Positions 3,838 to 37,983 of a stretch of 64,000 nt of DNA are shown here, in pieces; position 1 is the stretch's first letter; each line of letters opens with the position of its first letter. Under the pieces are notes generated by a model. It was not told the DNA's origin and made no database searches. It worked only from the letters and a program-made list of their open reading frames with translations. The stretch is from Bacteroidota bacterium (GTDB lineage: Bacteria; Bacteroidota; Bacteroidia; Bacteroidales; F082), in the NCBI GenBank assembly GCA_020444415.1, contig JAHLLA010000001.1:744001-808000 (forward strand). The letters run 5' to 3'. A program made the translations under genes and the position numbers.

Positions 3838-4446
3838 TTAAACTTTCATTTTATAGCGGTTTGCTACTTCTTTCCAGTTTACAACATGCCAGAATGCTTC
3901 AATGTATTCGGGCCTTTTATTGCGGTATTTAAGATAATAGGCATGCTCCCATACATCGAGGCATAAAAGCGGATTTCCGTTGATCTCAGATACATTCATT
4001 AATGGGTTAACCTGGTTTGGTGTGGAGGTAATTACCAGTTCTCCATTTCTTTTTTTGATCAACCAGGCCCAGCCTGATCCAAATCGTGTAGCCGCGGCAT
4101 TGCTGAAATCTTCTTTAAAATTCTCGAATGTGCCAAAATACTTGATAATGGCATCGAACAATTCACCGTCGGGCTTTTCCTGCTGATCGGGTGCCAGATT
4201 TTTCCAAAACAGGTTGTGGTTATAAAAACCTCCACCATTATTTTTCACCGCATCAGGGTATTTCGATATATTTTCAAAAATATCTTCAATTTCCATTTTT
4301 TCCATTTCCGTATTTTTTATCGCTTTAACAAACTTATCAAGATAAGCCTGGTGATGCTTCTGGTGGTGGATTTTCATTGTTTCTTCATCGATGTAGGGTT
4401 CCAGCGCATCATACGCGTACGGTAATTCCGGTAGTTTGTAATTCAT
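3838..4446 (-). CDS. sodA: Superoxide dismutase, Mn-type signature
   Basis: 202 aa Fe/Mn-family SOD. Metal ligands are H27, H77, D164 and H168 (IHHQKHH, NHNLFW, DVWEHAY). The glycine run before the second ligand (GGGFYNH) with Q145 in the TPNQVNP loop is the arrangement of Mn enzymes; Fe enzymes carry the outer-sphere Gln at the earlier site. I start at MNYKLPELPY because family members begin there; an in-frame ATG 12 codons upstream adds MCIFKKHLKISI, which has no counterpart. First gene of a tight operon with encapsulated ferritin and encapsulin, so superoxide removal is coupled to iron storage. No cargo-loading peptide at the C-terminus (RYKMKV). A second, Fe-type SOD is at 47.2 kb. Confidence 0.92.
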   Translation of the reverse strand: MNYKLPELPYAYDALEPYIDEETMKIHHQKHHQAYLDKFVKAIKNTEMEKMEIEDIFENISKYPDAVKNNGGGFYNHNLFWKNLAPDQQEKPDGELFDAIIKYFGTFENFKEDFSNAAATRFGSGWAWLIKKRNGELVITSTPNQVNPLMNVSEINGNPLLCLDVWEHAYYLKYRNKRPEYIEAFWHVVNWKEVANRYKMKV

Positions 4447-4750
4447 GATACTAATTTTTAAATGTTTTTTGAAAATACACATTCAAAATTTCATGCCATA
4501 TTTAAATTGGTGAATAAATTGAAGACTAAAACAGGTGTTCATTATCAATATGGATCCTTTTTGATTCGATTGGCAGCACCTGAACAAGGCATGGGCTATC
4601 CATTGAGGGAAAAAGGGCAAATTTTCAGGTGTAATGTTACAAGATATCGGTATTACCGTGAAATGTTTGTAGAGTATTTACCCACATAGTGGGAAGATTT
4701 CTACACGCATGCATCATAACAGTTGAGAAACATAGGAATGGTCCTAATTC
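4447..4750. other. Intergenic region upstream of the SOD-encapsulin operon
   Basis: About 300 bp between the SOD start and the stop of the sigma-54 regulator gene. It should hold the operon promoter. I do not see a convincing TAnnTTTG box or a sigma-54 -24/-12 pair on the SOD strand, nor a clear terminator for the upstream genes. A 75-codon open frame on the plus strand has no recognisable family features. Confidence 0.4.
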
Positions 4751-6112
4751 CTATTTCGATACAATTGAAATATTGTACTCCTTAATTTTATTATATAATG
4801 TTTTACGGTCGATGTTAAGCAATTTTGCCGCTTTTGATTTGTTAAAATTGCTTTTAATCAATGCATTGGTGATGACTTCTTTTTCCGCTTCCGAAGTGGC
4901 TTCTTTCAGCTCAAATACTGATTGTTCACTATTATTTGCCTCCTGTTTTGTTGTTTCAGCACCTTCATATTGAAGTATTTCTTCCGGTAACAAATCGGCG
5001 GTAATAAGAGGCCCGGTGGAAAGAAGAACACATCTTTTGACCACGTTTTCCAATTCGCGGATATTGCCGTACCAATAGTAATTCATAAAAATTTTGTGTA
5101 CTTCTTTATCAATACCTTCCACTGTTTTATCAAATTCCCTGTTGGCATTACGGATAAATTTATACACAAATTCCATAATATCCTCATTCCGCTCCCTGAG
5201 AGGTGGCAAATTGATTTTAAAACCGTTGATCCGGTGGTACAAATCCTCTCTGAAATTATTTTCCTTTACCTCGTTTAAAAGATCATCATTACTGGCAGTG
5301 ATCACTCTAACATCAACTTTGATTGTTTTATTATCGCCGACCTTGCTGATCACTCTTTCCTGTAAAGCACGCAACAGTTTCATCTGGTTTTCGTATGGAA
5401 GGTTACCTACCTCATCCAGAAATAGTGTGCCTCCCTTAGCCTGCTCAAAGTATCCCACTTTATCTTTAATGGCCCCGGTAAACGCACCTTTTATATGGCC
5501 AAACAATTCGCTGTTGGCCAACTCTTTGGGTATCACTCCACAGTCGACAGCAATAAACGGCTGGTTTTTTCTATCGCTGGCATAATGGATGTTTCGTGCG
5601 ATGAATTCTTTACCCGATCCGGTTTCGCCTTGTATGAGTACCGACAGTTCGGTGGGTGCCACTGTTTTTACATGGTTTAAAACTTCCCTTATCTTTTTAC
5701 TTTTTCCTGCAATAAATTTTTTGCTGAAGGTGGTTTGGGATTCTTTCTTTTTTCTTCCTTCAAATGCCTTTTTAATCGTGTTTAATATTTTTTCGTGCAG
5801 GATGGGTTTGGTAACGAAATCGAAAGCGCCCAGTTTGATTGCTTTCACAGCCGTGGGAATTTCAGCATAGGCCGTCATGATGATCACCTGGATTTTGTCG
5901 TTTTTCGACTTGGCATGTTTGAGCACTTCCATACCGTCTATATCGGGCAAGCGGTAATCGCAAAGCAAGAGATCATATTCATGTGCATTTAACTTTGCGA
6001 TCGCATCCTTTCCTTTATAAACGCCTTCTGTTTCGTATCCGTTTTTTTCCAGATACTTTTCGAGCAGGTCGCAAATATAGGCGTCATCATCAACAATTAA
6101 TATTCTTTTCAT
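4751..6112 (-). CDS. Sigma-54-dependent response regulator (NtrC family)
   Basis: 453 aa with three domains in order: receiver (about 1-120, acidic pocket D8-D10, phosphoacceptor D52 in LLLCDYRLPD), AAA+ sigma-54 activator (about 134-370; Walker A GETGSGKE 162-169, sigma-54 contact loop GAFTGA 209-214, Walker B FLDEVG 231-236) and a C-terminal Fis-type helix-turn-helix (about 425-445, KSKAAKLLNIDRKTLYNKI). With GAFTGA intact it should open sigma-54 promoters by ATP hydrolysis. It is encoded 160 bp downstream of a cytosolic hybrid histidine kinase in the same orientation, the likely partner. Target genes cannot be named. Confidence 0.95.
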   Translation of the reverse strand: MKRILIVDDDAYICDLLEKYLEKNGYETEGVYKGKDAIAKLNAHEYDLLLCDYRLPDIDGMEVLKHAKSKNDKIQVIIMTAYAEIPTAVKAIKLGAFDFVTKPILHEKILNTIKKAFEGRKKKESQTTFSKKFIAGKSKKIREVLNHVKTVAPTELSVLIQGETGSGKEFIARNIHYASDRKNQPFIAVDCGVIPKELANSELFGHIKGAFTGAIKDKVGYFEQAKGGTLFLDEVGNLPYENQMKLLRALQERVISKVGDNKTIKVDVRVITASNDDLLNEVKENNFREDLYHRINGFKINLPPLRERNEDIMEFVYKFIRNANREFDKTVEGIDKEVHKIFMNYYWYGNIRELENVVKRCVLLSTGPLITADLLPEEILQYEGAETTKQEANNSEQSVFELKEATSEAEKEVITNALIKSNFNKSKAAKLLNIDRKTLYNKIKEYNISIVSK

Positions 6113-6272: not shown

Positions 6273-8570
6273 TTATTGCTTGCGAAGATTTTCTTTTTCT
6301 TCCTCAATCCGGGTTAATACCTTTTCAGTTTTTGGTATTATTTCCTTAATAGTTTCCTCAATAAGAGTGGTTTCAGACTGATCCCGGATCATCGTTTCCA
6401 AATGCTGAAAAAGTGGAATAATCTCTTCTAATTTCAAATGAATAACAGAAGGAAGTAATTTATGCGCCATTTCACCCGCCTTTTTCCAGTCTTTTCCTGG
6501 GATTGTATTTCTAAGAACCTCCAGCCCTTCTTCCATATTTTTTGTAAAAGTGTCGAGCATTGACAATAAAAAAACATCATCGTTCCCTGCCATGGCTCTT
6601 AGTTCAGAAAGATCATAAGCTGTTTTGTTTTTTCCGGTCTGGTAAGTACTTTTTTCAACAATGATTTTACGTTCCGTTAAAAGCTTACTGATCGCATTGT
6701 ATAGTTTGTTTTCCTTAAAGGGTTTGCTCATATAATCGTTAATCCCGGCCGCTTTATACTTTTGTATATCTTTTTTCATGAAAGCGGCTGTAACAGCGAG
6801 TATTTTGGTAGTTTCATCTTGTTTTACCTGCCTGAGGAAGTTGGCCACATCTATTCCGCTTACGCCCGGCATATAAATGTCAAGAACGAGAATATCGTAC
6901 GTATGATCATTTAAAATTTCTATTGCTTCGGCGCCTCCTTCGGCCAGATCAACTTCAAATCCGAGGTTTTCAAGAATAATTTGCCCCAACAAGCGAATCA
7001 TTCTGTCATCATCAACAAGCAAGGCCTTTTTGCCTTCAAACTTAATTTTCTGCTTAGGTGTCGTTTCTTCATAATAACTTATACTACGCGCCTTGTTAAA
7101 GGGAAGCGTTACTGTAAATGTTGTGCCTGCACCCAATACACTTTTAACTTTAATGTCACCCCCAATGGCTTCAACCAGCCTTTTACTGATGGAAAGGCCC
7201 AGCCCTGTACCTCCGTATTTTTTTGTAACTGCCGAATCTGCCTGGCGGAACTGATCGAATATAACGTTCTGTTTATCCTCAGCAATACCAACGCCGGTAT
7301 CAATCACTTCAAAACGGACAAACAATTGGTCATTTGTTTCATATTCAACAAATCCATTCATTGTTACATTCCCTTCATCTGTAAATTTTATTGCATTGCC
7401 CACCAAATTGGTAAGTATTTGGTTCAGGCGCATTTCATCGCCCAAAACGATTTGTTTTAATCCCGCATCTATTTCGCATTTAAAATCAATCTGTTTCTCA
7501 TCGGCACTCAGTTTCATAAAACGGTAAATGTAATCCAACACATCATGAATCTTAAACGGGTCATCGTCCAATTCAATCCTGCCAGCCTCAATTCTTGACA
7601 ATATCAGCAGATCTTCCACGAGTTCCAGCAATTGCTCGGATGACTTTTCAACGATTTGTGTTAGTTCGCGCTGTTTTGCAGACATTTCCATTTTTAATAA
7701 TTGTTCAGTAAACCCAACGATGGTACTTAATGGTGTGCGTATTTCGTGGCTAATATTGGCTAAAAATTCACTTTTGGCTCTATTGGCCTTTTCTGCTTCT
7801 TTTTTTGCACTTGATAATCGCCTGGCGTTTTCTTTTTCATCGGTTATATTTTGTGAAATCGACATGCCGCCATATATTTCCCCTTCTTTATTAAATAGTG
7901 GAAAAACAGAAATTTTATACGTGTTTTTGTTGAACTCAAGTTCTGTAGACATATCCGTTCCTTCCAAGGCACATTTAAACAGTGGCTCCAATAGTTCCTG
8001 CATATTCGGATCACGTAATTCGGAAAGGGTTTTGCCTTCGAAATAATCCGAGCTTAACCCATGGTCTTTCATTTCCGAACCTTCAGCAATGATAAATCGC
8101 ATATCCGTATCGAATAAATACATATTGATGCCGGGAACACTTGCTGCCAGCATCCGGTGAAGTGAAATACTTTGATAAAGATCCTGCTGGGTATTCATAT
8201 GATCCGTAATATCTTTGCCTGATAACAGAATACTGTCAAAAGCATTGTTGTCATACACAGCCACCATTTTAAATTCGATGTATTTGGTTTCACCGTACTT
8301 GGTCCTGACCCTGAAACGGTTTGCCCTGATATCCCTATCGATATCCTCATAATGATGGAGAAAATCTTCGAAAATTGCTTTGTCGGCATCCGTAATCAGG
8401 AAATCGGCCCATAATTTACCAATCATTTCCTGTTCTTCAAAATCTAACAATTGATTCCCTGTTTTGTTTAACATCATAATTCTGCCCTGCTGATCGGTAG
8501 TGATGATCAGCATATCATACAGATCAAAGCATTTGTAAGTCAGTTCTTCTTTATTTTTTATCGTTTTCAT
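6273..8570 (-). CDS. Cytosolic hybrid sensor histidine kinase with REC and Hpt domains
   Basis: 765 aa with no transmembrane segment. Two PAS-type sensor domains (about 10-125 and 135-245) lead through a short coiled coil to HisKA (phospho-acceptor H275 in SHEIRTPLS), HATPase_c (N box near 388-397, DTGVGI 424-429, GTGLGLSISK 454-463), a receiver domain (about 515-630, phosphoacceptor D564) and a C-terminal Hpt domain (H703 in AHKLLPS). All modules needed for a His-Asp-His relay are in one chain; the missing last Asp is supplied naturally by the adjacent NtrC-type regulator. The signal is presumably intracellular, via PAS; I see no haem or flavin signature I would trust. Confidence 0.93.
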   Translation of the reverse strand: MKTIKNKEELTYKCFDLYDMLIITTDQQGRIMMLNKTGNQLLDFEEQEMIGKLWADFLITDADKAIFEDFLHHYEDIDRDIRANRFRVRTKYGETKYIEFKMVAVYDNNAFDSILLSGKDITDHMNTQQDLYQSISLHRMLAASVPGINMYLFDTDMRFIIAEGSEMKDHGLSSDYFEGKTLSELRDPNMQELLEPLFKCALEGTDMSTELEFNKNTYKISVFPLFNKEGEIYGGMSISQNITDEKENARRLSSAKKEAEKANRAKSEFLANISHEIRTPLSTIVGFTEQLLKMEMSAKQRELTQIVEKSSEQLLELVEDLLILSRIEAGRIELDDDPFKIHDVLDYIYRFMKLSADEKQIDFKCEIDAGLKQIVLGDEMRLNQILTNLVGNAIKFTDEGNVTMNGFVEYETNDQLFVRFEVIDTGVGIAEDKQNVIFDQFRQADSAVTKKYGGTGLGLSISKRLVEAIGGDIKVKSVLGAGTTFTVTLPFNKARSISYYEETTPKQKIKFEGKKALLVDDDRMIRLLGQIILENLGFEVDLAEGGAEAIEILNDHTYDILVLDIYMPGVSGIDVANFLRQVKQDETTKILAVTAAFMKKDIQKYKAAGINDYMSKPFKENKLYNAISKLLTERKIIVEKSTYQTGKNKTAYDLSELRAMAGNDDVFLLSMLDTFTKNMEEGLEVLRNTIPGKDWKKAGEMAHKLLPSVIHLKLEEIIPLFQHLETMIRDQSETTLIEETIKEIIPKTEKVLTRIEEEKENLRKQ

Positions 8571-8768
8571 TTCTTTTTTCTTGCAAAACCGGTTTGAGCG
8601 ACAAATTCAATGCACTTTTCTTTTAACTTAAATAAAAAGTGGCCTAAAATTAATATATAATCTGAAATTGTATATTTTTCCTATTATACAAACAGCTGCT
8701 GCAAACCGGCTGAATTTTATTTATGTTTATACTGAAATTGAGTGTCAACGTTCATTAATCTCCTGACG

Positions 8769-8984
8769 ATGAAAAATGAAGTTAACAAAGAACTGATGGA
8801 TCCCATGCGTAAAAATCCTGACAACTGGAAATGGATTTTTTATATAAATCGCAGAGATCCTCGACTGATTGTGCCCAAATTAAACCCAACCATGGGATGG
8901 ACAATAAACCTTGGAAATACCTGGGCGGTTACCGGATTAATTCTAATTACGGCTATTGTTGTTGGTTGGTCGATTTGGATGTAG
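8769..8984 (+). CDS. DUF5808 family small membrane protein
   Basis: 71 aa. The middle has the DUF5808 pattern: NPDNWKWIFYINRRDPRLIVPK followed by .GWTINLG.TWA, split here by ordinary residues. The C-terminal ~20 residues form one hydrophobic helix (TGLILITAIVVGWSIWM). DUF5808 has no assigned function; larger members have several membrane segments. Start is at MKNEVNKEL; an ATG nine codons upstream is possible but lacks a counterpart in the pattern. It stands alone between the divergent kinase gene and a thioesterase gene. Confidence 0.7.
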   Translation: MKNEVNKELMDPMRKNPDNWKWIFYINRRDPRLIVPKLNPTMGWTINLGNTWAVTGLILITAIVVGWSIWM

Positions 8985-9196
8985 GTTGAATTTTAAACCA
9001 ATATAAATGTCAGTCCCTAATTTAATAAACTATTCTAAAATAGACTAGAGTTATAAATCGGCTTTTGTTAGAGAAAACTAAAGACCCACTGAAAGCTTTC
9101 TCAAAACCTTCAATAATAACGTAGCTATTGTTAGTGTGTATAAAATAAAAAAGAATGGATAAAATTTCTACTTTCGTTCTTAAAATATTAATTAAT

Positions 9197-9697
9197 ATGG
9201 AAATCAAAGCATTCCAGGATTATTATCCCGATGACTTCAATCAGTGCTATGGATGTGGTGGATTAAATGAACATGGCCATCAAATTAAGAGTTTTTGGGA
9301 AGGCGATAAGGCCATTGCTGAATTTGAGCCCAAACCCTACCATACTTCGCTTCCCGGTTACGTTTATGGTGGACTAATTGCCTCACTCATCGATTGCCAC
9401 AGTACAGGAACTGCGGCAGCAGCACTTTACAAAAAGGAAGGTCGGCCAATGGATTCAACACCACCCTTTAGGTGTGTAACCGCTAGCCTGCATGTGGATT
9501 ATCTCCGTCCTACCCCATTGGATGGAAAATTAAAGCTGGAAGCCACCGTAAAAAATATTGATGGCAAAAGGGTAAATATTTTAGTAGAACTATTCTGGGG
9601 TGGCAAGCTTTGCGCCAAAGGTGAAGTTGTAGCTGTTGCTGTTGGTGAAAAGTGGCTCAGTCGCTGGATTAGTAATTCTGATGAATCATTAATATAA
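9197..9697 (+). CDS. PaaI-family (hotdog fold) thioesterase
   Basis: 166 aa single hotdog domain. Visible features are the N-terminal CYGCGGLNEHGH, a pattern shared by 4HBT/PaaI-like proteins that open with a Cys pair, then HTSLPGYVYGGLIASLID with the family's Gly-Gly turn and an acidic residue on the hotdog helix, and SLHVDYLRPTP on the central sheet. Members hydrolyse acyl-CoA thioesters in the cytosol; the acyl chain is unknown. An upstream ATG adds 14 residues (MDKISTFVLKILIN); I prefer MEIKAFQDYY because it begins just before conserved sequence. Confidence 0.85.
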   Translation: MEIKAFQDYYPDDFNQCYGCGGLNEHGHQIKSFWEGDKAIAEFEPKPYHTSLPGYVYGGLIASLIDCHSTGTAAAALYKKEGRPMDSTPPFRCVTASLHVDYLRPTPLDGKLKLEATVKNIDGKRVNILVELFWGGKLCAKGEVVAVAVGEKWLSRWISNSDESLI

Positions 9698-9852
9698 AAA
9701 GAGCTACTTACCATCTCGAATTAATAACGCTTATTACATTAATGTCGATATTATCCGTGTTTCACTTATTTCCTAAGTAAAACGTTATTAATATATTGTA
9801 CGATTGATTATCTGAGTATTATGAGGGTTTCTGTATTTTACACTAAAAAACA

Positions 9853-9897
9853 AAAGAAAACCTCAACTATTGAATTACAATGAGTTGAGGTTTCTTT
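9853..9897. terminator. Bidirectional intrinsic terminator between thioesterase gene and tRNA
   Basis: A ~15 bp inverted repeat (AAAGAAACCTCAACT and its complement, one bulged A) around a 14-nt loop. It is followed by T-rich sequence on the minus strand, where it would end the tRNA transcript, and more weakly on the plus strand for the thioesterase gene. Confidence 0.8.
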
Positions 9898-9901
9898 GAA
9901 G

Positions 9902-9975
9902 TGGGCCCACCAGGACTTGAACCTGGGACAACCTGATTATGAGTCAGGGACTCTAACCAACTGAGCTATAGGCCC
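9902..9975 (-). tRNA. tRNA with CAT anticodon (Met, or Ile2 if lysidine-modified)
   Basis: A 74-nt cloverleaf: acceptor GGGCCTA with TGGGCCC, D arm around AGCTCAGTTGGTTAGAG, anticodon stem CCTGA/TCAGG enclosing loop CTCATAA (anticodon CAT), T loop GGTTCAAGTCC, discriminator A. CCA is not encoded. CAT tRNAs may be initiator Met, elongator Met or lysidinylated Ile2. The paired first base (G-C) argues against an initiator; Met versus Ile2 cannot be settled by eye. Confidence 0.93.
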
Positions 9976-10006
9976 GGATTTGACATACAAATCCCAAATG
10001 TGGCTG

Positions 10007-10036
10007 CAAAAATACATATTTGTAAGCAAAAAGCAA
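10007..10036 (-). promoter_or_regulatory. Promoter of the CAT tRNA gene
   Basis: On the minus strand TTG (10036-10034) is followed 19 nt later by TATTTTTG (10014-10007), a match to the Bacteroidota -33 TTG / -7 TAnnTTTG promoter. It ends about 30 bp before the mature tRNA 5' end. Confidence 0.6.
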
Positions 10037-10125
10037 CACAATCAACTGAAATTTTGATTAGCTTGCAGGCTCGAATTAAGCAGGAACTTTCCTGTATCAT
10101 TTGAATGCTGAAAAGTTAAAAACAG

Positions 10126-10779
10126 ATGAAAGCAAAGAACATTAAAACCATTATTTTCGATTTTGGCGGTGTTATCTTAGATATTGATCCCCAGATCACT
10201 ATCAAAGAATTTCAGAAAATGGGGTTTAAAGATGTGGCCAAAACTAAAAGCAAAGAATTTATTGAGGACATCATCAGGAAATTTGAAAGGGGCATTTACA
10301 CCCCAGAAGTTTTTAGAAAAAAATTACGGGCTTTTCTTGAACTGGATGTGTCCGACCAAAAACTGGATGATGCCTGGAACGCCCTGATTTATGACATCCC
10401 TGCCGAACGGATTGAAATATTGGAACAAGTAAAGAAAAACTATCAAATGTTGCTACTGAGCAATTCAAATGAAATCCATTACGACCTTTATGTCCGCGAT
10501 TTACAACTTAGGTTTGGGTACCGTGAATTTGATGAATTATTCGACAAAGCATACTTTTCATTTGATATGCATTTAAGCAAACCTGACCCGGAAGTATATG
10601 AATTCATTATCAACCAGCACAACCTGAAACCTTCTCAAACTTTATTTATTGACGATAACGAAGAAAACATAGCTGCCGCCTCTAAACTGGGTTTAAAAAC
10701 CTATTTATTGGCCAAACCTGAACGGGTAAGGGATATATTTGAAAATGGGGTACTCAAGCCCGGTCTGGAAATAAACTAA
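10126..10779 (+). CDS. HAD-IA family hydrolase (YihX-like phosphatase)
   Basis: 217 aa HAD enzyme. Motif I is FDFGGVILDID (nucleophile D in the DFGG variant found in YihX and epoxide-hydrolase-like members), motif II is LLLSNSNE, and motifs III/IV are KPDPEVYEF and FIDDNEENI. A helical cap of about 70 residues sits between I and II, as in subfamily IA. Cytosolic; likely a sugar-phosphate or nucleotide phosphatase, but YihX-type members are promiscuous. Its stop codon overlaps the stop of the convergent dusB gene by 2 bp. Confidence 0.85.
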   Translation: MKAKNIKTIIFDFGGVILDIDPQITIKEFQKMGFKDVAKTKSKEFIEDIIRKFERGIYTPEVFRKKLRAFLELDVSDQKLDDAWNALIYDIPAERIEILEQVKKNYQMLLLSNSNEIHYDLYVRDLQLRFGYREFDELFDKAYFSFDMHLSKPDPEVYEFIINQHNLKPSQTLFIDDNEENIAAASKLGLKTYLLAKPERVRDIFENGVLKPGLEIN

Positions 10780-11774
10780 ACGTAAAATTCTTCTATTTTT
10801 CTGAGCAATTGATCCACTTCTTCCAGTGTTTCAAGTTCCATCATTTTTTGCCTGAAGGGCTTAAAATGCGGATAACCTTTAAAATAATCAGCCCAGTGCT
10901 TTCTCAGTTCCATCACACCCCTTCTCTCACCTTTCCATTCGCAGGATTTATGAAGTTGTATTTTACTGATCCTGATACGCTCTTGGATGGCCGGAGGAGG
11001 AATCAGTTCTCCTGTTTTTAAATAATGTTTTATTTCTTTAAATATCCAGGGGTTACCATACACAGCGCGGGCTACCATAAGCCCGTCCACACCATAAGTA
11101 TCTTTAAAATATTTGGCCGACACGGGATCCACTACATCTCCATTTCCGAATACCGGAATATGCATGCGCGGGTTGTTTTTCACTTCGCCAATTAAAGTCC
11201 AGTCGGCGGGCACCCTTGGGCGTTGCGTACGCGTACGGCCATGAATAGTAATGGCTTTGATGCCTACATCCTGCAACCGTTCCGCTATTTCAACAATATC
11301 ACGATGTTCATCGTCATAGCCCAATCGGGTCTTTATGCTTACCGGCAATTTCACAGCCTTAACAACAGCTTCCGTCATTTTTACCATCTTCGGTAAGTCG
11401 TTCAAAATACCTGAACCCGCTCCTTTTGCAACTACCTTTCTTACAGGACATCCGTAATTTATATCAATCAAATCAGGATTGGCACGCTCGGCATATTGTG
11501 CCGCTTGCACCATCGAATCAATATCGTGGCCGAATATCTGAATTCCGATAGGTCTTTCAAACTCTTCGAAATCAAGCTTTTTCACACTCTTGCCTGCATC
11601 CCTGATGAGTCCTTCGGATGAAATAAACTCGGTATACATCATATCAGCTCCAAAAAGCTTGCATACATACCTGAATGGCGGGTCTGTTACATCTTCCATG
11701 GGTGCAAGCAAAATGGGAAACTCGCCCAATTCTATCTGATCAATCTTTACCAACTCTATTTTTTTTGAAAGCAT
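10776..11774 (-). CDS. dusB: tRNA-dihydrouridine synthase DusB
   Basis: 332 aa FMN-dependent enzyme that reduces uridines in the tRNA D loop. TIM-barrel signatures: LLAPMEDVTDPPFR (about 23-36), INYGCPVRKVVAKGAG (with the catalytic cysteine and conserved Lys), IKTRLGYDDEH, ITIHGRTR and the FMN-phosphate motif GNGDV...DGLMVARA. The start is open: a TATTTTTG box sits only 1 bp upstream of the ATG, so an in-frame TTG at residue 8 (giving a start just before VKIDQIELGEFP, where DusB proteins normally begin) is a real alternative. Confidence 0.93.
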   Translation of the reverse strand: MLSKKIELVKIDQIELGEFPILLAPMEDVTDPPFRYVCKLFGADMMYTEFISSEGLIRDAGKSVKKLDFEEFERPIGIQIFGHDIDSMVQAAQYAERANPDLIDINYGCPVRKVVAKGAGSGILNDLPKMVKMTEAVVKAVKLPVSIKTRLGYDDEHRDIVEIAERLQDVGIKAITIHGRTRTQRPRVPADWTLIGEVKNNPRMHIPVFGNGDVVDPVSAKYFKDTYGVDGLMVARAVYGNPWIFKEIKHYLKTGELIPPPAIQERIRISKIQLHKSCEWKGERRGVMELRKHWADYFKGYPHFKPFRQKMMELETLEEVDQLLRKIEEFYV

Positions 11775-34374: not shown

Positions 34375-35274
34375 CTAGCGTGCAAATTCTTTATTGATGA
34401 GTTTGTTTAGCTTTCTGTATGTATTATTAACTATAACATGATCAGCAGTTATCAATTCTCCTTTATATTCAACTCTTCCGTCTTTACCCATTATTATCAG
34501 GGTCGGAACAGCATTGAATTGAAAAATAGATTTGATTTGTTTTGCCTCTTCATTTGATGTAAATAGCGTTGGAAATGAATAGTTGTAATTGGTGATCACT
34601 TTCTTAATCTCATCAGATGTTTGACCTTTATGCGATAGATTCACAGCATAAAATTCAACCTCAGAACTAAATTTATAATAATTGTATAGTTTATCAAATT
34701 CAGGAAATTGTTTTAAGCATATTGCACAACTGGTACTCCAAAAATCCAGTACCACAATTTTACCTTTTAAATCGCCTAAATAGAAAGTGGAGTCATGCTC
34801 ATTTCTGAGTTTCAAATTATGAACAGCACTGATTTGAACGGTCTCCTGCTCACCTGGTTTACTAAAGACATATGCCAACCAATTTGGCATTCCTAAATAT
34901 CCTAAGATAGCAAGGAAGATAACAAAAAGTGCAGAATAAGTATATTTACGTACTGATGCGTTGACGCCAAATTTGCTATTGATTAAAAGTCCAATTGGAC
35001 AAGTAATAAGCGGTAGGAATGCTATCGGATAAACATGAATTGCATTTGAACTTACAACAACTCCCCCATAAATTATTATAAATGGTAACAAAACCAGAAA
35101 ACCATATACACTCCTCTTCAGTCCAAATCTTTTGTTATAAACTAGTCCTCCGATAAAAAAGAGAGTCCCAACTATAATAAATTGGTTAATCCAGTTTAAT
35201 GCACCAGCCAGTATTGATAATCCGCTAATTACTACTATTATTACTATTAAAAAGAGGATATTTTTATATCTCAT
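34375..35274 (-). CDS. Membrane-anchored TlpA/thioredoxin-like protein
   Basis: 299 aa. The first ~135 residues hold four or five membrane helices (about 5-25, 32-46, 58-75, 82-100, 112-128) with no family I recognise. Residues ~145-299 form a TlpA-like thioredoxin domain with VLDFWSTSCAICLKQFPEF (redox pair C183/C186) and the cis-proline in NAVPTLII. CAIC is a variant of the CxxC found in extracytoplasmic thiol-disulfide oxidoreductases. It lies 62 bp downstream of a protein with eight C-terminal cysteines, so forming or reshuffling disulfides in that product is a natural hypothesis; a hairpin sits between the two genes. A/T-rich accessory region. Confidence 0.85.
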   Translation of the reverse strand: MRYKNILFLIVIIVVISGLSILAGALNWINQFIIVGTLFFIGGLVYNKRFGLKRSVYGFLVLLPFIIIYGGVVVSSNAIHVYPIAFLPLITCPIGLLINSKFGVNASVRKYTYSALFVIFLAILGYLGMPNWLAYVFSKPGEQETVQISAVHNLKLRNEHDSTFYLGDLKGKIVVLDFWSTSCAICLKQFPEFDKLYNYYKFSSEVEFYAVNLSHKGQTSDEIKKVITNYNYSFPTLFTSNEEAKQIKSIFQFNAVPTLIIMGKDGRVEYKGELITADHVIVNNTYRKLNKLINKEFAR

Positions 35275-35288
35275 TCTTATAAAAATTA

Positions 35289-35320
35289 AAATGAAGGTGG
35301 TTTACATAGACCACCTTCAT
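35289..35320 (-). terminator. Hairpin attenuator/terminator between the fulvocin-like and TlpA genes
   Basis: A perfect 12-bp inverted repeat (AATGAAGGTGGT / ACCACCTTCATT, loop of eight). On the minus strand it is followed by TTTTAATTTTTAT and then the TlpA start, so it should partly end transcription after the upstream gene, lowering TlpA expression relative to it. Confidence 0.75.
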
Positions 35321-35336
35321 TAGATTATGAAATTTA

Positions 35337-36038
35337 TCAATCACCTCCTGGCTCAACTAATGCACATTTACCATCACAAGGACTTGTCCATAGGGTGCCG
35401 CAACCTAAAGAGGAATATGTGCAATTATCATGATGCAATTTACATTTTTGTGAAGTTCCATACCCGGAGATATCACACCAGTCAGAAGTTGTGCTACATG
35501 TACATGTCCCAAAAATATCACGATCTGCCTCTTCTACTGCTTTCATATAATCTACTAATTTATTATCCTCTGAATATAAATCAAGTGTGACTACAATTGA
35601 ATAAACTATCCCTTCAGAAAAACCGATCTCATTTATTCCAGTCTCTATCCAGTTTCTCAAGTAAGCATCAATTATGTTTTTATAATTAGGATTACTTAAT
35701 TTCTCTTCGTTAAACCATCCTACACTCATTTCATTTCTAAGTTTAATAATATGATCAAACTCATCTTGACTCCACTCTAATTTAAGTGTTTCAAATAGTT
35801 TATCATTCCAACATGAATATCTATTTTCTGGCGACATCGCCCTGAACATTGCTCTTTGGTATTCTATATTGTACGTAATCAAATCTTTTCTGTTCATATC
35901 ACTAATTTTATCAAGATTCTCAACTACAAAACAATTAATTTCTTCATCGCAACTATAACGATGAGACTCACTCTTTTGGCATGAGGATAAAATAAAAAGA
36001 AGGATACTTAAAATTGACAAATATTTTTTCATTATCAT
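35337..36038 (-). CDS. Fulvocin C-related, bacteriocin-like cysteine-rich lipoprotein precursor
   Basis: 233 aa. Lipoprotein signal peptide ending LFILSSC (C20). A ~155-residue acidic, mainly helical middle part with three more cysteines (C30, C36, C76) leads to a C-terminal module with eight cysteines: C179, C181, C188, C199, C206, C213, C221, C225. Its core TCTCSTTSDWC and LGCGTLW closely match the myxobacterial bacteriocin fulvocin C (eight cysteines, 45 residues; recalled from memory as NCSCSTASDYC and TGCGTGW). The layout, propeptide plus C-terminal 50 residues, fits a secreted peptide released by cleavage. MKKYLS two codons in is an equally good start. Next gene down is a TlpA-type thioredoxin. 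Confidence 0.75.
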   Translation of the reverse strand: MIMKKYLSILSILLFILSSCQKSESHRYSCDEEINCFVVENLDKISDMNRKDLITYNIEYQRAMFRAMSPENRYSCWNDKLFETLKLEWSQDEFDHIIKLRNEMSVGWFNEEKLSNPNYKNIIDAYLRNWIETGINEIGFSEGIVYSIVVTLDLYSEDNKLVDYMKAVEEADRDIFGTCTCSTTSDWCDISGYGTSQKCKLHHDNCTYSSLGCGTLWTSPCDGKCALVEPGGD

Positions 36039-36096: not shown

Positions 36097-36388
36097 GGGT
36101 ATTAAACCTAAATCATCCCGTCTTAGGTTTAATATCTATTATGTTCATTTAATTATCTTTGCCGTCATGCCTCCTTTCTTTGTTTATGGTTCGTATATGG
36201 TTGTATGGTCATTAACATTTAAAGGGGGTTTTATTTTAAACACCCCGTGTCAACTGTAATAAAATATTACGGAAGTTTTGTGGAAATCCGTTTTGTCCAT
36301 TTTTCATAATTGCTTGATTCGTAAAGGTTAAAAAAAAAAAACGATAGAAAACACGTTCTTTTATAGTTTAGAACATTTTTAAATAAGC
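36097..36388. repeat. Diverged intergenic element, copy 1
   Basis: Aligns to 39169-39448. The first 94 positions align without gaps at about 79% identity by hand and include a TATCTTTG box and a 21-nt identical run; after a short indel a second block shares TTCATAATTGCTTGATT and an A12 run. Each copy lies upstream of a minus-strand lipoprotein gene and marks the distal end of a cassette. The rest of the 36039-36522 gap is A/T-rich without other recognised signals. Confidence 0.85.
36167..36259 (+). CDS. Possible 30-aa hydrophobic peptide in intergenic element copy 1
   Basis: MPPFFVYGSYMVVWSLTFKG followed by ten more residues. A TATCTTTG box ends 5 bp before the ATG. The equivalent frame in copy 2 (39242-39295) keeps PPFFVYG.Y and mostly conservative changes (M/L, V/L, V/I, S/T, T/A) but has TTA in place of ATG and stops earlier. 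This pattern could reflect past coding or chance in hydrophobic A/T-rich codons. Confidence 0.25.
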   Translation: MPPFFVYGSYMVVWSLTFKGGFILNTPCQL

Positions 36389-36465: not shown

Positions 36466-36522
36466 AACAAATTGTCACGCGCATAATGCGCGCGCCAGTT
36501 TAATTTACACTCCCTCCCGATT

Positions 36523-37983
36523 TTACTTTTTAATCCACTTTCCCCTATAAATCATTTTATCATTCACGTTTTTCAACCTATAAAAGTATATCCCGCCAGG
36601 TAAATCCTCAGTATTAATGATATTAAGACCTTTATGAAGCTTTTTACTGATCATTACTTTCCCTTCACTATTTAATAGTTCAAGATGAAGTATATCCTCA
36701 AAAATATGAATTGATATATTGTTTGCACCAGGATTTGGATAAACACTAATTTGTTTTTTATTCTCACTTAATTCATCTTTAAGAACAATTGTTCCGCCCT
36801 GATCTACTTTAATAATAATGATATCCCGGTTCGGTATATCCGTACTTCTCCAATCGTAATATGAGGACATTAGTACACTTCCACCATCAGAAGTCGCAAA
36901 TAAATTCGTCATTCGATAACAACCATCTCCTCCATACATATAATTCCACTCTATGTTCTGATCTTCAAAATTCTTTTTTTGTAAAATCAACCACCTATCT
37001 TCATCTTGAAAGGGCGATACAGTTGGGTAATGTGCATTATGGGTCCCACCATAAAATACAGCATCTAACGAATTAAAATCCAATCCTCCGAAGATATCCA
37101 GTGTATCGGTTGAAAAAATCTGAGCAGAATCCAAAATTTGAAATTCTGGGTTTAAAATATACAAACCAACATCGTAAGGATCCTGAATGGAGTTGAAATT
37201 CAATTTTACACCCCCAATTATAAAATTACTATTATTTACTTGTTTTTCATACCCTGAATTAAAAAACCTATTTACATATTGAGGATATATAAGCGTATCT
37301 CTATGAAAAGAAAGATCATATTTTATAAAACTGGACGATGTTATAACAAAATATCCTCCATGGTACTGATTGTACATAATTTTATAAACCCCGTTCTCAT
37401 ATTCATAATAATCATCGTAAATAATCTCGTAAGGACTGCCCTCCACATTTGTCTTTATAAATACATGACCCCCATCCTCATTCGTTATTCCATTTCTGCA
37501 ATAAAGAATAACTTCATTAAGATGGTTGACTGCTATATCGGAATACCATTCAAAAATAGTATCACTTCCAAATAATTCACAATTAATCAAATCAAGATTT
37601 ACATTATATGCCGCATAAAACACTTGTTCATCAGAATAGTCGTTTTTTACCGTACGCCCAACGACAATTATGGTGTCATTAATTTTTTTAATTGTTCTGG
37701 CAGAAATATAATAATCTTCAAACAGATTTAGACTGATTGAATCAAGCACATTCAAGTCATTATCAGTCATAATAATATAACTTTCATACTCGAATATTTC
37801 GGGATAGGAAGCACTGGTATCAATATAAGCTCCGGTATTGATTATAAAACAATATAGATTTTCATTTATCTCAATTCCTCCTCTGACAATTTCGTCATTA
37901 AGTGTACCCATACACATTTTATTTGATTGAGCATTTACCAGCACATTAGAAAGGATAAGAGATATAATTAATAGATATTTCAT
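36523..37983 (-). CDS. Secreted protein with T9SS type A sorting domain
   Basis: 486 aa. Signal peptide (MKYLLIISLILSNVLVNAQS), then about 390 residues of beta-rich sequence with recurring Asn/Asp/Tyr-rich strands that suggests a propeller, and a C-terminal sorting tail from about 410 (ISVYPNPGANNISIHI ... GIYFYRLKNVNDKMIYRGKWIKK), the type A signal recognised by the type IX secretion system. Cargo is moved across the outer membrane and the tail is cleaved. No catalytic motif seen. A/T-rich; likely co-transcribed with the lipoprotein gene 95 bp upstream. Confidence 0.85.
   Translation of the reverse strand: MKYLLIISLILSNVLVNAQSNKMCMGTLNDEIVRGGIEINENLYCFIINTGAYIDTSASYPEIFEYESYIIMTDNDLNVLDSISLNLFEDYYISARTIKKINDTIIVVGRTVKNDYSDEQVFYAAYNVNLDLINCELFGSDTIFEWYSDIAVNHLNEVILYCRNGITNEDGGHVFIKTNVEGSPYEIIYDDYYEYENGVYKIMYNQYHGGYFVITSSSFIKYDLSFHRDTLIYPQYVNRFFNSGYEKQVNNSNFIIGGVKLNFNSIQDPYDVGLYILNPEFQILDSAQIFSTDTLDIFGGLDFNSLDAVFYGGTHNAHYPTVSPFQDEDRWLILQKKNFEDQNIEWNYMYGGDGCYRMTNLFATSDGGSVLMSSYYDWRSTDIPNRDIIIIKVDQGGTIVLKDELSENKKQISVYPNPGANNISIHIFEDILHLELLNSEGKVMISKKLHKGLNIINTEDLPGGIYFYRLKNVNDKMIYRGKWIKK

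Follow-up and report, generated by a model that had tools for sequence, protein, structure and literature searches.

On balance, the gene at positions 35337 to 36038 of the window (the whole 64,000-nucleotide stretch of Bacteroidota DNA analyzed here) and the gene directly downstream of it appear to form a two-gene cassette, in which a disulfide-rich bacteriocin of the fulvocin C type would be matured by a dedicated membrane thioredoxin and its cysteine module released to act on competitors. That the family is related to fulvocin C was known before; the newer part is the conserved thiol-redox partnership, together with the exchange of C-terminal tips between carriers. The openly accessible papers covered by the literature search gave nothing on this operon or on how a fulvocin-type peptide is made. 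The conserved partner offers a testable route to maturation, and perhaps to immunity, for a bacteriocin-related family. If the proposal is true, the precursor-thioredoxin pair could serve as a kit for producing peptides with four disulfides.

The Lipoprotein Precursor

The precursor gene and its parts are located as follows.

35337..36038, minus strand: fulvocin C-related lipoprotein precursor, whole open reading frame (NF033852.1 match and list of open reading frames)
35979..36038, minus strand: signal peptide with lipobox, residues 1 to 20 (LSSC, C20; direct sequence reading)
35592..35945, minus strand: helical carrier domain, approximately residues 32 to 149 (AlphaFold2 and profile match)
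35361..35504, minus strand: eight-cysteine fulvocin-like module, approximately residues 179 to 226 (conserved cysteines and GCG; profile test)

The open reading frame of 233 codons starts with ATG and encodes 233 amino acids. The signal peptide ends in the lipobox ...LFILSSC, with C20 as its last residue, and is followed by a middle part of ∼158 residues and a C terminus of the form CTCSTTSDWC...GCGTLW...CDGKC, with eight cysteines between C179 and C225. This bears out the earlier note, which had described a lipobox precursor with a long middle part and an eight-cysteine C-terminal module. The NCBIfam model NF033852.1 (bacteriocin fulvocin C-related protein) matches residues 61 to 225 over profile positions 1 to 149 of 150, with a score of 107.7 bits (E = 9.5e-31) against a cutoff of 35, so that membership in this already named family is established at the sequence level. 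Pfam contains no family matching the precursor at its cutoff, and sequence matches in the PDB are at chance level (best E values of 0.6 and 0.32).

AlphaFold2, run with 11 sequences, models the helical domain well, with pLDDT values of 81 to 97 in blocks of ten residues. Residues 170 to 213 and 222 to 233, that is, most of the module, have values below 50, and nothing is therefore claimed on the fold of the module. Neither Foldseek (best E of 1.3) nor VIA-align (best Z of 3.0) names a relative of the helical domain; this absence does not prove a new fold.

C20 is nearly invariant in 16 sequences. The residues that follow, QKSE, are similar to the signal that directs Bacteroidota lipoproteins to the surface, for which one study gives the consensus QKDDE (PMC5080379). 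Lysine occupies position +3 in 14 of the 22 lipoprotein-type sequences, the window included, a count that comprises two lipoboxes read by hand. The lipobox is absent from the members in Acidobacteria and Streptomyces and from loci L033 and L062, which means that lipid anchoring is not general.

These features bear on an alternative in which the module stays on the lipidated precursor and, similar to the SitA lipoproteins, acts as a surface-displayed toxin on touching cells. The nearly invariant C20, the export-like lysine at +3, and the combination of a carrier with an exchangeable tip are in line with such a contact toxin, which nevertheless appears quite improbable, given the members lacking a lipobox and the fact that fulvocin C was reportedly isolated as a free 45-residue peptide in a 1981 study.

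Distribution of the Family

At an E value of 0.001 or better, NF033852 is found in 7 of 295 genomes of the order, 9 of 395 of the class, 4 of 395 of the phylum, and 4 of 100 of the family, in samples that all include the window's own genome and partly overlap. Two of the four genus members within the family sample carry it. Scanning genome contigs for the pattern yielded 10 loci, of which five were discarded as repeats of contigs collected before, and two plasmids, one from Bacteroides finegoldii and one from Streptomyces, were found when plasmids were searched with the window protein. After the removal of repeats, including a third family-sample locus at the same place as L038, 26 loci were compared: the window, 16 loci from the order, class, and phylum samples, 5 from the pattern scan, 2 from plasmids, and 2 from the family sample. 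The family thus occurs in Bacteroidota (including the Bacteroides plasmid), Acidobacteria, and Streptomyces, and its occurrence across the sampled genomes is patchy. No match to the precursor was found in phages, nor did the pattern scan of viral contigs return one; a phage or virus origin is rejected on these results.

The Eight-Cysteine Module and Fulvocin C

Fulvocin C is a bacteriocin of Myxococcus fulvus whose mature form, if the 45-residue reference sequence used here is right, consists of the module alone. A profile built from 11 modules scores 35.3 bits against this sequence, compared to maxima of 4.7 bits in 1,000 full shuffles and 19.5 bits in 1,000 shuffles with fixed cysteines. This supports homology between the module and fulvocin C, provided that the reference sequence is right, and together with the NF033852 score it upholds the relationship proposed before. 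The accompanying description of the cysteines as spaced like those of fulvocin C holds with respect to homology and only loosely with respect to spacing: the intervals in the window are 1,6,10,6,6,7,3, whereas those of fulvocin C, which we take to be 1,6,5,5,6,6,1, are identical at three of seven places. Within the family, the intervals are often 1,6,5,4,6,7,3; the long third loop of the window (10 residues) has counterparts of 9 to 11 residues in L033, L038, L039, and L052.

All 28 unbroken modules in the homologue set, the window included, contain eight cysteines; 22 of these were identified by a strict spacing pattern and the other 6 by visual count, and the set leaves out L022 (an open reading frame without a module), the two pieces of the broken L035, and the duplicate L063. 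The module piece of L035 carries ten cysteines. Five further copies from Streptomyces comprise four with eight cysteines and one, L084, with ten in altered spacing; L084 is the NBC_01224 plasmid. Homologues with an absent or scrambled module, which had been named as counterevidence to the bacteriocin assignment, are hence limited to a few relatives, namely, two helical open reading frames, L084, and the broken L035.

Conservation is higher in the module than in the carrier in each of the seven pairs of Bacteroidota sequences compared. Between the window and L038, 36 of 47 module residues (77%) are identical, compared to 77 of 176 carrier residues (44%). This is not the usual picture of a toxin in an arms race. 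The conservation is one of the points in favor of a nonweapon role, in which the module would be a redox-active, metal-binding, or signaling domain of the envelope, with its disulfide state read or reset by the partner, and the term bacteriocin would be an overannotation derived from fulvocin C. The partnership with thiol-redox proteins described below fits this explanation as well, as does the fact that the papers searched gave no report of killing by a family member. The explanation is unlikely, albeit worth serious consideration, since the module is clearly similar to a bacteriocin that presumably consists of nothing else, the family is distributed patchily, and tips are exchanged in Streptomyces.

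The Membrane Thioredoxin Partner

The preferred reading, maturation of a released bacteriocin, draws on the gene adjacent to the precursor gene, of which the earlier note made no mention.

34375..35274, minus strand: partner of 299 amino acids with five predicted transmembrane helices and a ResA-like thioredoxin domain with a CAIC motif (Pfam, NCBIfam, structure model, Foldseek)

The partner matches the Pfam family AhpC-TSA with an E value of 5e-13. The NCBIfam model for ResA reaches 1e-17 yet stays under its cutoff, as do the other NCBIfam thioredoxin models, and a Foldseek search with the structure model ranks ResA first (1e-8). C183, C186, and P257 are invariant in eight of eight sequences, and P257 lies at the place expected of the cis-proline, a label assigned in this analysis. 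The partners of L038 and L042 contain no cysteine outside the CxxC motif, so that a relay of cysteines across the membrane part is no general feature. The partner may oxidize, isomerize, or reduce a client.

In 18 of the 26 loci, a search with the partner profile identifies a CxxC-bearing homologue directly downstream of the precursor gene and in the same orientation. The same order of precursor and thioredoxin genes is annotated in the record of the Bacteroides finegoldii plasmid. The largest gap among those measured between the two genes is 187 nucleotides, at L025. In the window's own genome, the profile finds one full-length match (371.7 bits) and 14 others below 60 bits; on this basis, a simple binomial estimate puts the association far from chance, although this estimate assumes 2,800 genes and, as the loci are related by descent, its figure is no true probability.

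Among the eight loci without a downstream partner, three (L020, L031, and L046) have a gene for a DUF1573 protein with a CxC motif beside the precursor gene, L034 carries a ResA-like gene close upstream in the opposite orientation, and L037, a Streptomyces form, has a thioredoxin-like head with CxxC fused to the precursor. For L022, the broken L035, and L047, no thiol-redox neighbor was found with the profiles used. L036 has both types of partner, the membrane thioredoxin and DUF1573. A DUF1573 protein with a UGC motif is listed in a selenoprotein table of one study (PMC9312934), which fits a redox role.

The pairing is not exclusive. A search with the membrane half of the partner gives matches in 5 of 100 genomes of the family and 8 of 295 of the order, where 13 candidates per genome were scored; this search is insensitive and missed the partners of L053 in the family sample and of L023 and L025 in the order sample, all of which the longer profile found. 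L077, L078, and L079 encode a partner and no recognizable fulvocin precursor, which counts against exclusive pairing. L081 shows only an apparent module end (18.5 bits) near the start of its contig beside the partner, and two further partner-only candidates begin at the contig start (L080) or are broken (L082). Judged by gene content, partners without a precursor would fit a role as orphan immunity genes. Upstream of the partner gene of L077, at ∼4500 to 5000, lies a cysteine-rich frame with no clear start, perhaps a different or decayed client.

Exchange of Tips on a Nearly Constant Carrier in Streptomyces, and Other Signs of Modularity

Carrier and module also occur apart. In L033, the module follows an apparently plain signal peptide without the helical domain, in a protein of 105 amino acids that scores 34.8 bits against the cutoff of 35. 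The gene directly upstream of this module-only peptide gene, at 8370 to 8759, encodes a DCC1-like thiol-disulfide oxidoreductase (Pfam E of 3.3e-17). Open reading frames with the helical domain and no module adjoin a full-length member in L022 (148 amino acids, 48.6 bits) and in L047/L063 (123 amino acids, 29.6 bits, below the cutoff of 35). In L062, a module fragment lies ∼2.6 kb from the full member, beyond a transposase-like open reading frame recognized by eye, and looks like a copy truncated by an insertion; in this stretch (8507 to 10986), a DUF1573-like gene follows shortly downstream.

The clearest cases of exchange come from Streptomyces. The Streptomyces protein has matches in 15 plasmid records, 10 of which cover at least 80% of its length; seven copies from six plasmids were read in addition to pieces from S. 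clavuligerus. In their frames, a head and a Tat-like segment precede the helical carrier and the module. Models of Tat signals match three of six proteins weakly, under their cutoffs. Thioredoxins are the best matches of the head profile, although weak ones (best E of 0.0084); a DCC1-like identity of the head is unsupported (hhalign probability of 1.8). Plasmid NBC_00012 carries two tandem copies, nearly identical over ∼780 bases of DNA and diverging at the module: head and carrier are identical at 272 of 284 residues (∼96%), compared to 23 of 42 (55%) in the module, as expected of an exchangeable tip. The related plasmid NBC_00046 joins the 5' part of copy 1 (799 of 800 bases) to the tip of copy 2 (180 of 180 bases), and its tip agrees with that of copy 1 at only 50 of 180 bases. 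The Streptomyces module thus behaves as an exchangeable tip on a nearly constant carrier. Agreement between NBC_01224 and NBC_00826 falls from 82% in the head to 43% in the carrier and 36% in the module; their records annotate the start after the head, so that the head there rests on the open frame. S. clavuligerus plasmid pSCL4 (L088, ∼4030 to 4560) encodes a carrier and a module of eight cysteines in an open frame that lacks the head; the copy is apparently broken.

The same head and Tat-like segment occur on plasmids of Rubrobacter and Thermomicrobium, where they are fused to other domains whose cysteine-rich ends differ.

L087, 3968-5131, and L090, 4034-5053: fusions of the head to other cysteine-rich C termini, each with an S8 peptidase gene a few genes away

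From their sequences, these fusions may represent sister peptide families.

The separate helical proteins suggest another explanation, a self-protecting precursor similar to that of halocin C8. Here, immunity would come from the helical carrier or from the partner's membrane half, made together with the toxin tip, and the stand-alone helical relatives would be free immunity proteins. The position of these relatives directly beside full-length members in L022 and L047/L063 agrees with this, and so do the lack of a recurring separate immunity gene, the thioredoxin partners without a toxin gene as candidate orphan immunity genes, and the precedent of halocin C8, where one Tat-exported precursor yields the immunity protein HalI and the peptide (PMC11509114). 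In NBC_00012, however, the carrier stays nearly constant while the tip changes, contrary to the covariation expected of a cognate immunity domain. The helical-only frames, moreover, lie beside just 2 of the 26 loci and are distant from their full-length neighbors (48 of 140 and 29 of 117 residues identical). Self-protection by the carrier is accordingly regarded as doubtful.

Expression Signals and Neighboring Genes

Two terminator-like hairpins flank the precursor gene.

35290..35321, minus strand: terminator-like hairpin between the precursor and partner genes, with a 12-bp stem, an 8-nt loop, and a T-rich tail (folding z-score of -4.6)
36476..36494, minus strand: terminator-like hairpin between the upstream gene of the type IX secretion system (T9SS) type and the precursor gene

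Three terminator-like sites are found in the region, compared to 1.1 expected (standard deviation of 1.2). Where present, a hairpin between the two genes would allow an excess of precursor to be produced. Such a hairpin is clear in only 4 of the 12 gaps of at least 25 nucleotides, those of the window, L038, L021, and L023, in a count that leaves out five loci with shorter gaps or overlaps as well as L028; the sequences differ, and a conserved hairpin is rejected on these numbers. An inverted repeat at 36101 to 36133 with 11-bp arms (ATTAAACCTAA/TTAGGTTTAAT), ∼63 to 95 nucleotides upstream of the precursor start, is possibly regulatory. The promoter search found no element of the Bacteroidota type TAnnTTTG, and the number of sigma-70-like sites, 14 compared to 11.5 expected, does not exceed chance.

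The T9SS-type gene upstream of the precursor gene (36523 to 37983) encodes a secreted protein with a homologue in L078 (5767 to 7233; 40% over 181 amino acids), where it directly precedes the thioredoxin partner gene without a recognizable fulvocin gene. Membership of this gene in the cassette is rejected, as it has its own terminator-like site in the window and none was found at L038. A defense system is likewise rejected, the only match being a marginal one to AbiEi (E of 0.0077). Beside the Bacteroidota loci, where a library search annotated only a minority of the neighbors, no gene for a transporter, a processing protease, or immunity was found repeatedly. Genes for O-antigen ligases (Wzy_C) lie near 3 of the 26 loci (L020, 9247 to 10596; L036, 14717 to 16285; L042, 3883 to 5400) and raise the question of glycosylation.

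Proposed Maturation

The proposed cassette builds on the homology of the module, the precursor architecture, the conserved cysteines, the partner gene with its CxxC motif, and the tip exchange in Streptomyces. The precursor would be exported and, as its lipobox suggests, lipidated at C20; the QK-type sequence after C20 would then probably direct it to the surface of the outer membrane. The C-terminal module of ∼47 residues would constitute the active tip, with the helical domain as a carrier or prodomain. In the predicted orientation, the five-helix partner would present its ResA-like CxxC thioredoxin domain to the periplasm, where it would form or shuffle the four disulfides expected in the module. 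A cleavage in the flexible linker may free the module, in accordance with mature fulvocin C presumably being the module alone, and the freed module would act on, and possibly kill, competing bacteria.

The earlier note is confirmed in what it observed, and its interpretation is supported in part, with respect to the fulvocin relation, the lipoprotein architecture, and the modularity. A broader version of the proposal, a long shot at present, would define a class of disulfide-rich bacteriocins, spanning phyla, that swap tips and are accompanied by a thioredoxin of their own. The five-helix membrane thioredoxin of Bacteroidota would act as both maturase and, through its membrane half, immunity protein; in Streptomyces, a thioredoxin-like head would sit on the same chain; and in Rubrobacter and Thermomicrobium, the same head would be placed on unrelated cysteine-rich tips.

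Comparison with Known Systems

The members of NF033852 share the helical region and the eight-cysteine C terminus, and no protein feature sets the window precursor apart from them. Fulvocin C, judged by the reference sequence, is homologous to the window module over its length, including CxCS...SDxC and GCGTxW, and differs in the last two cysteine intervals, 6,1 in contrast to 7,3. Its mature form, the only form compared, is taken to be the module by itself, whereas the window module is placed on a lipoprotein carrier.

The SitA lipoproteins of myxobacteria are described as modular toxins delivered by membrane exchange. They resemble the window precursor in having a lipoprotein carrier with an exchangeable C-terminal tip. 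The SitA tips are nucleases acting in the cytoplasm, in contrast to the short cysteine module of the window, and no SitA-type C-terminal nuclease domain was found in the precursor, which has no significant match in Pfam. The halocin C8 precursor ProC8 is exported as a single chain that has a helper domain at its N terminus and the peptide at its C terminus (PMC11509114). The comparison with the window precursor is one of layout, and immunity conferred by the window carrier would be hypothetical.

PedC and the related thiol-disulfide oxidoreductases BdbA and BlpGst serve cysteine-containing bacteriocins; PedC is encoded in the pediocin operon and is thought to serve pediocin (PMC4919988). The likeness lies in a thioredoxin-fold protein with CxxC beside a bacteriocin gene, an arrangement found here at 18 of 26 loci. 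Unlike in these systems, the thioredoxin of the window is mounted on five predicted transmembrane helices, and its presumptive client is an eight-cysteine peptide borne by a lipoprotein carrier.
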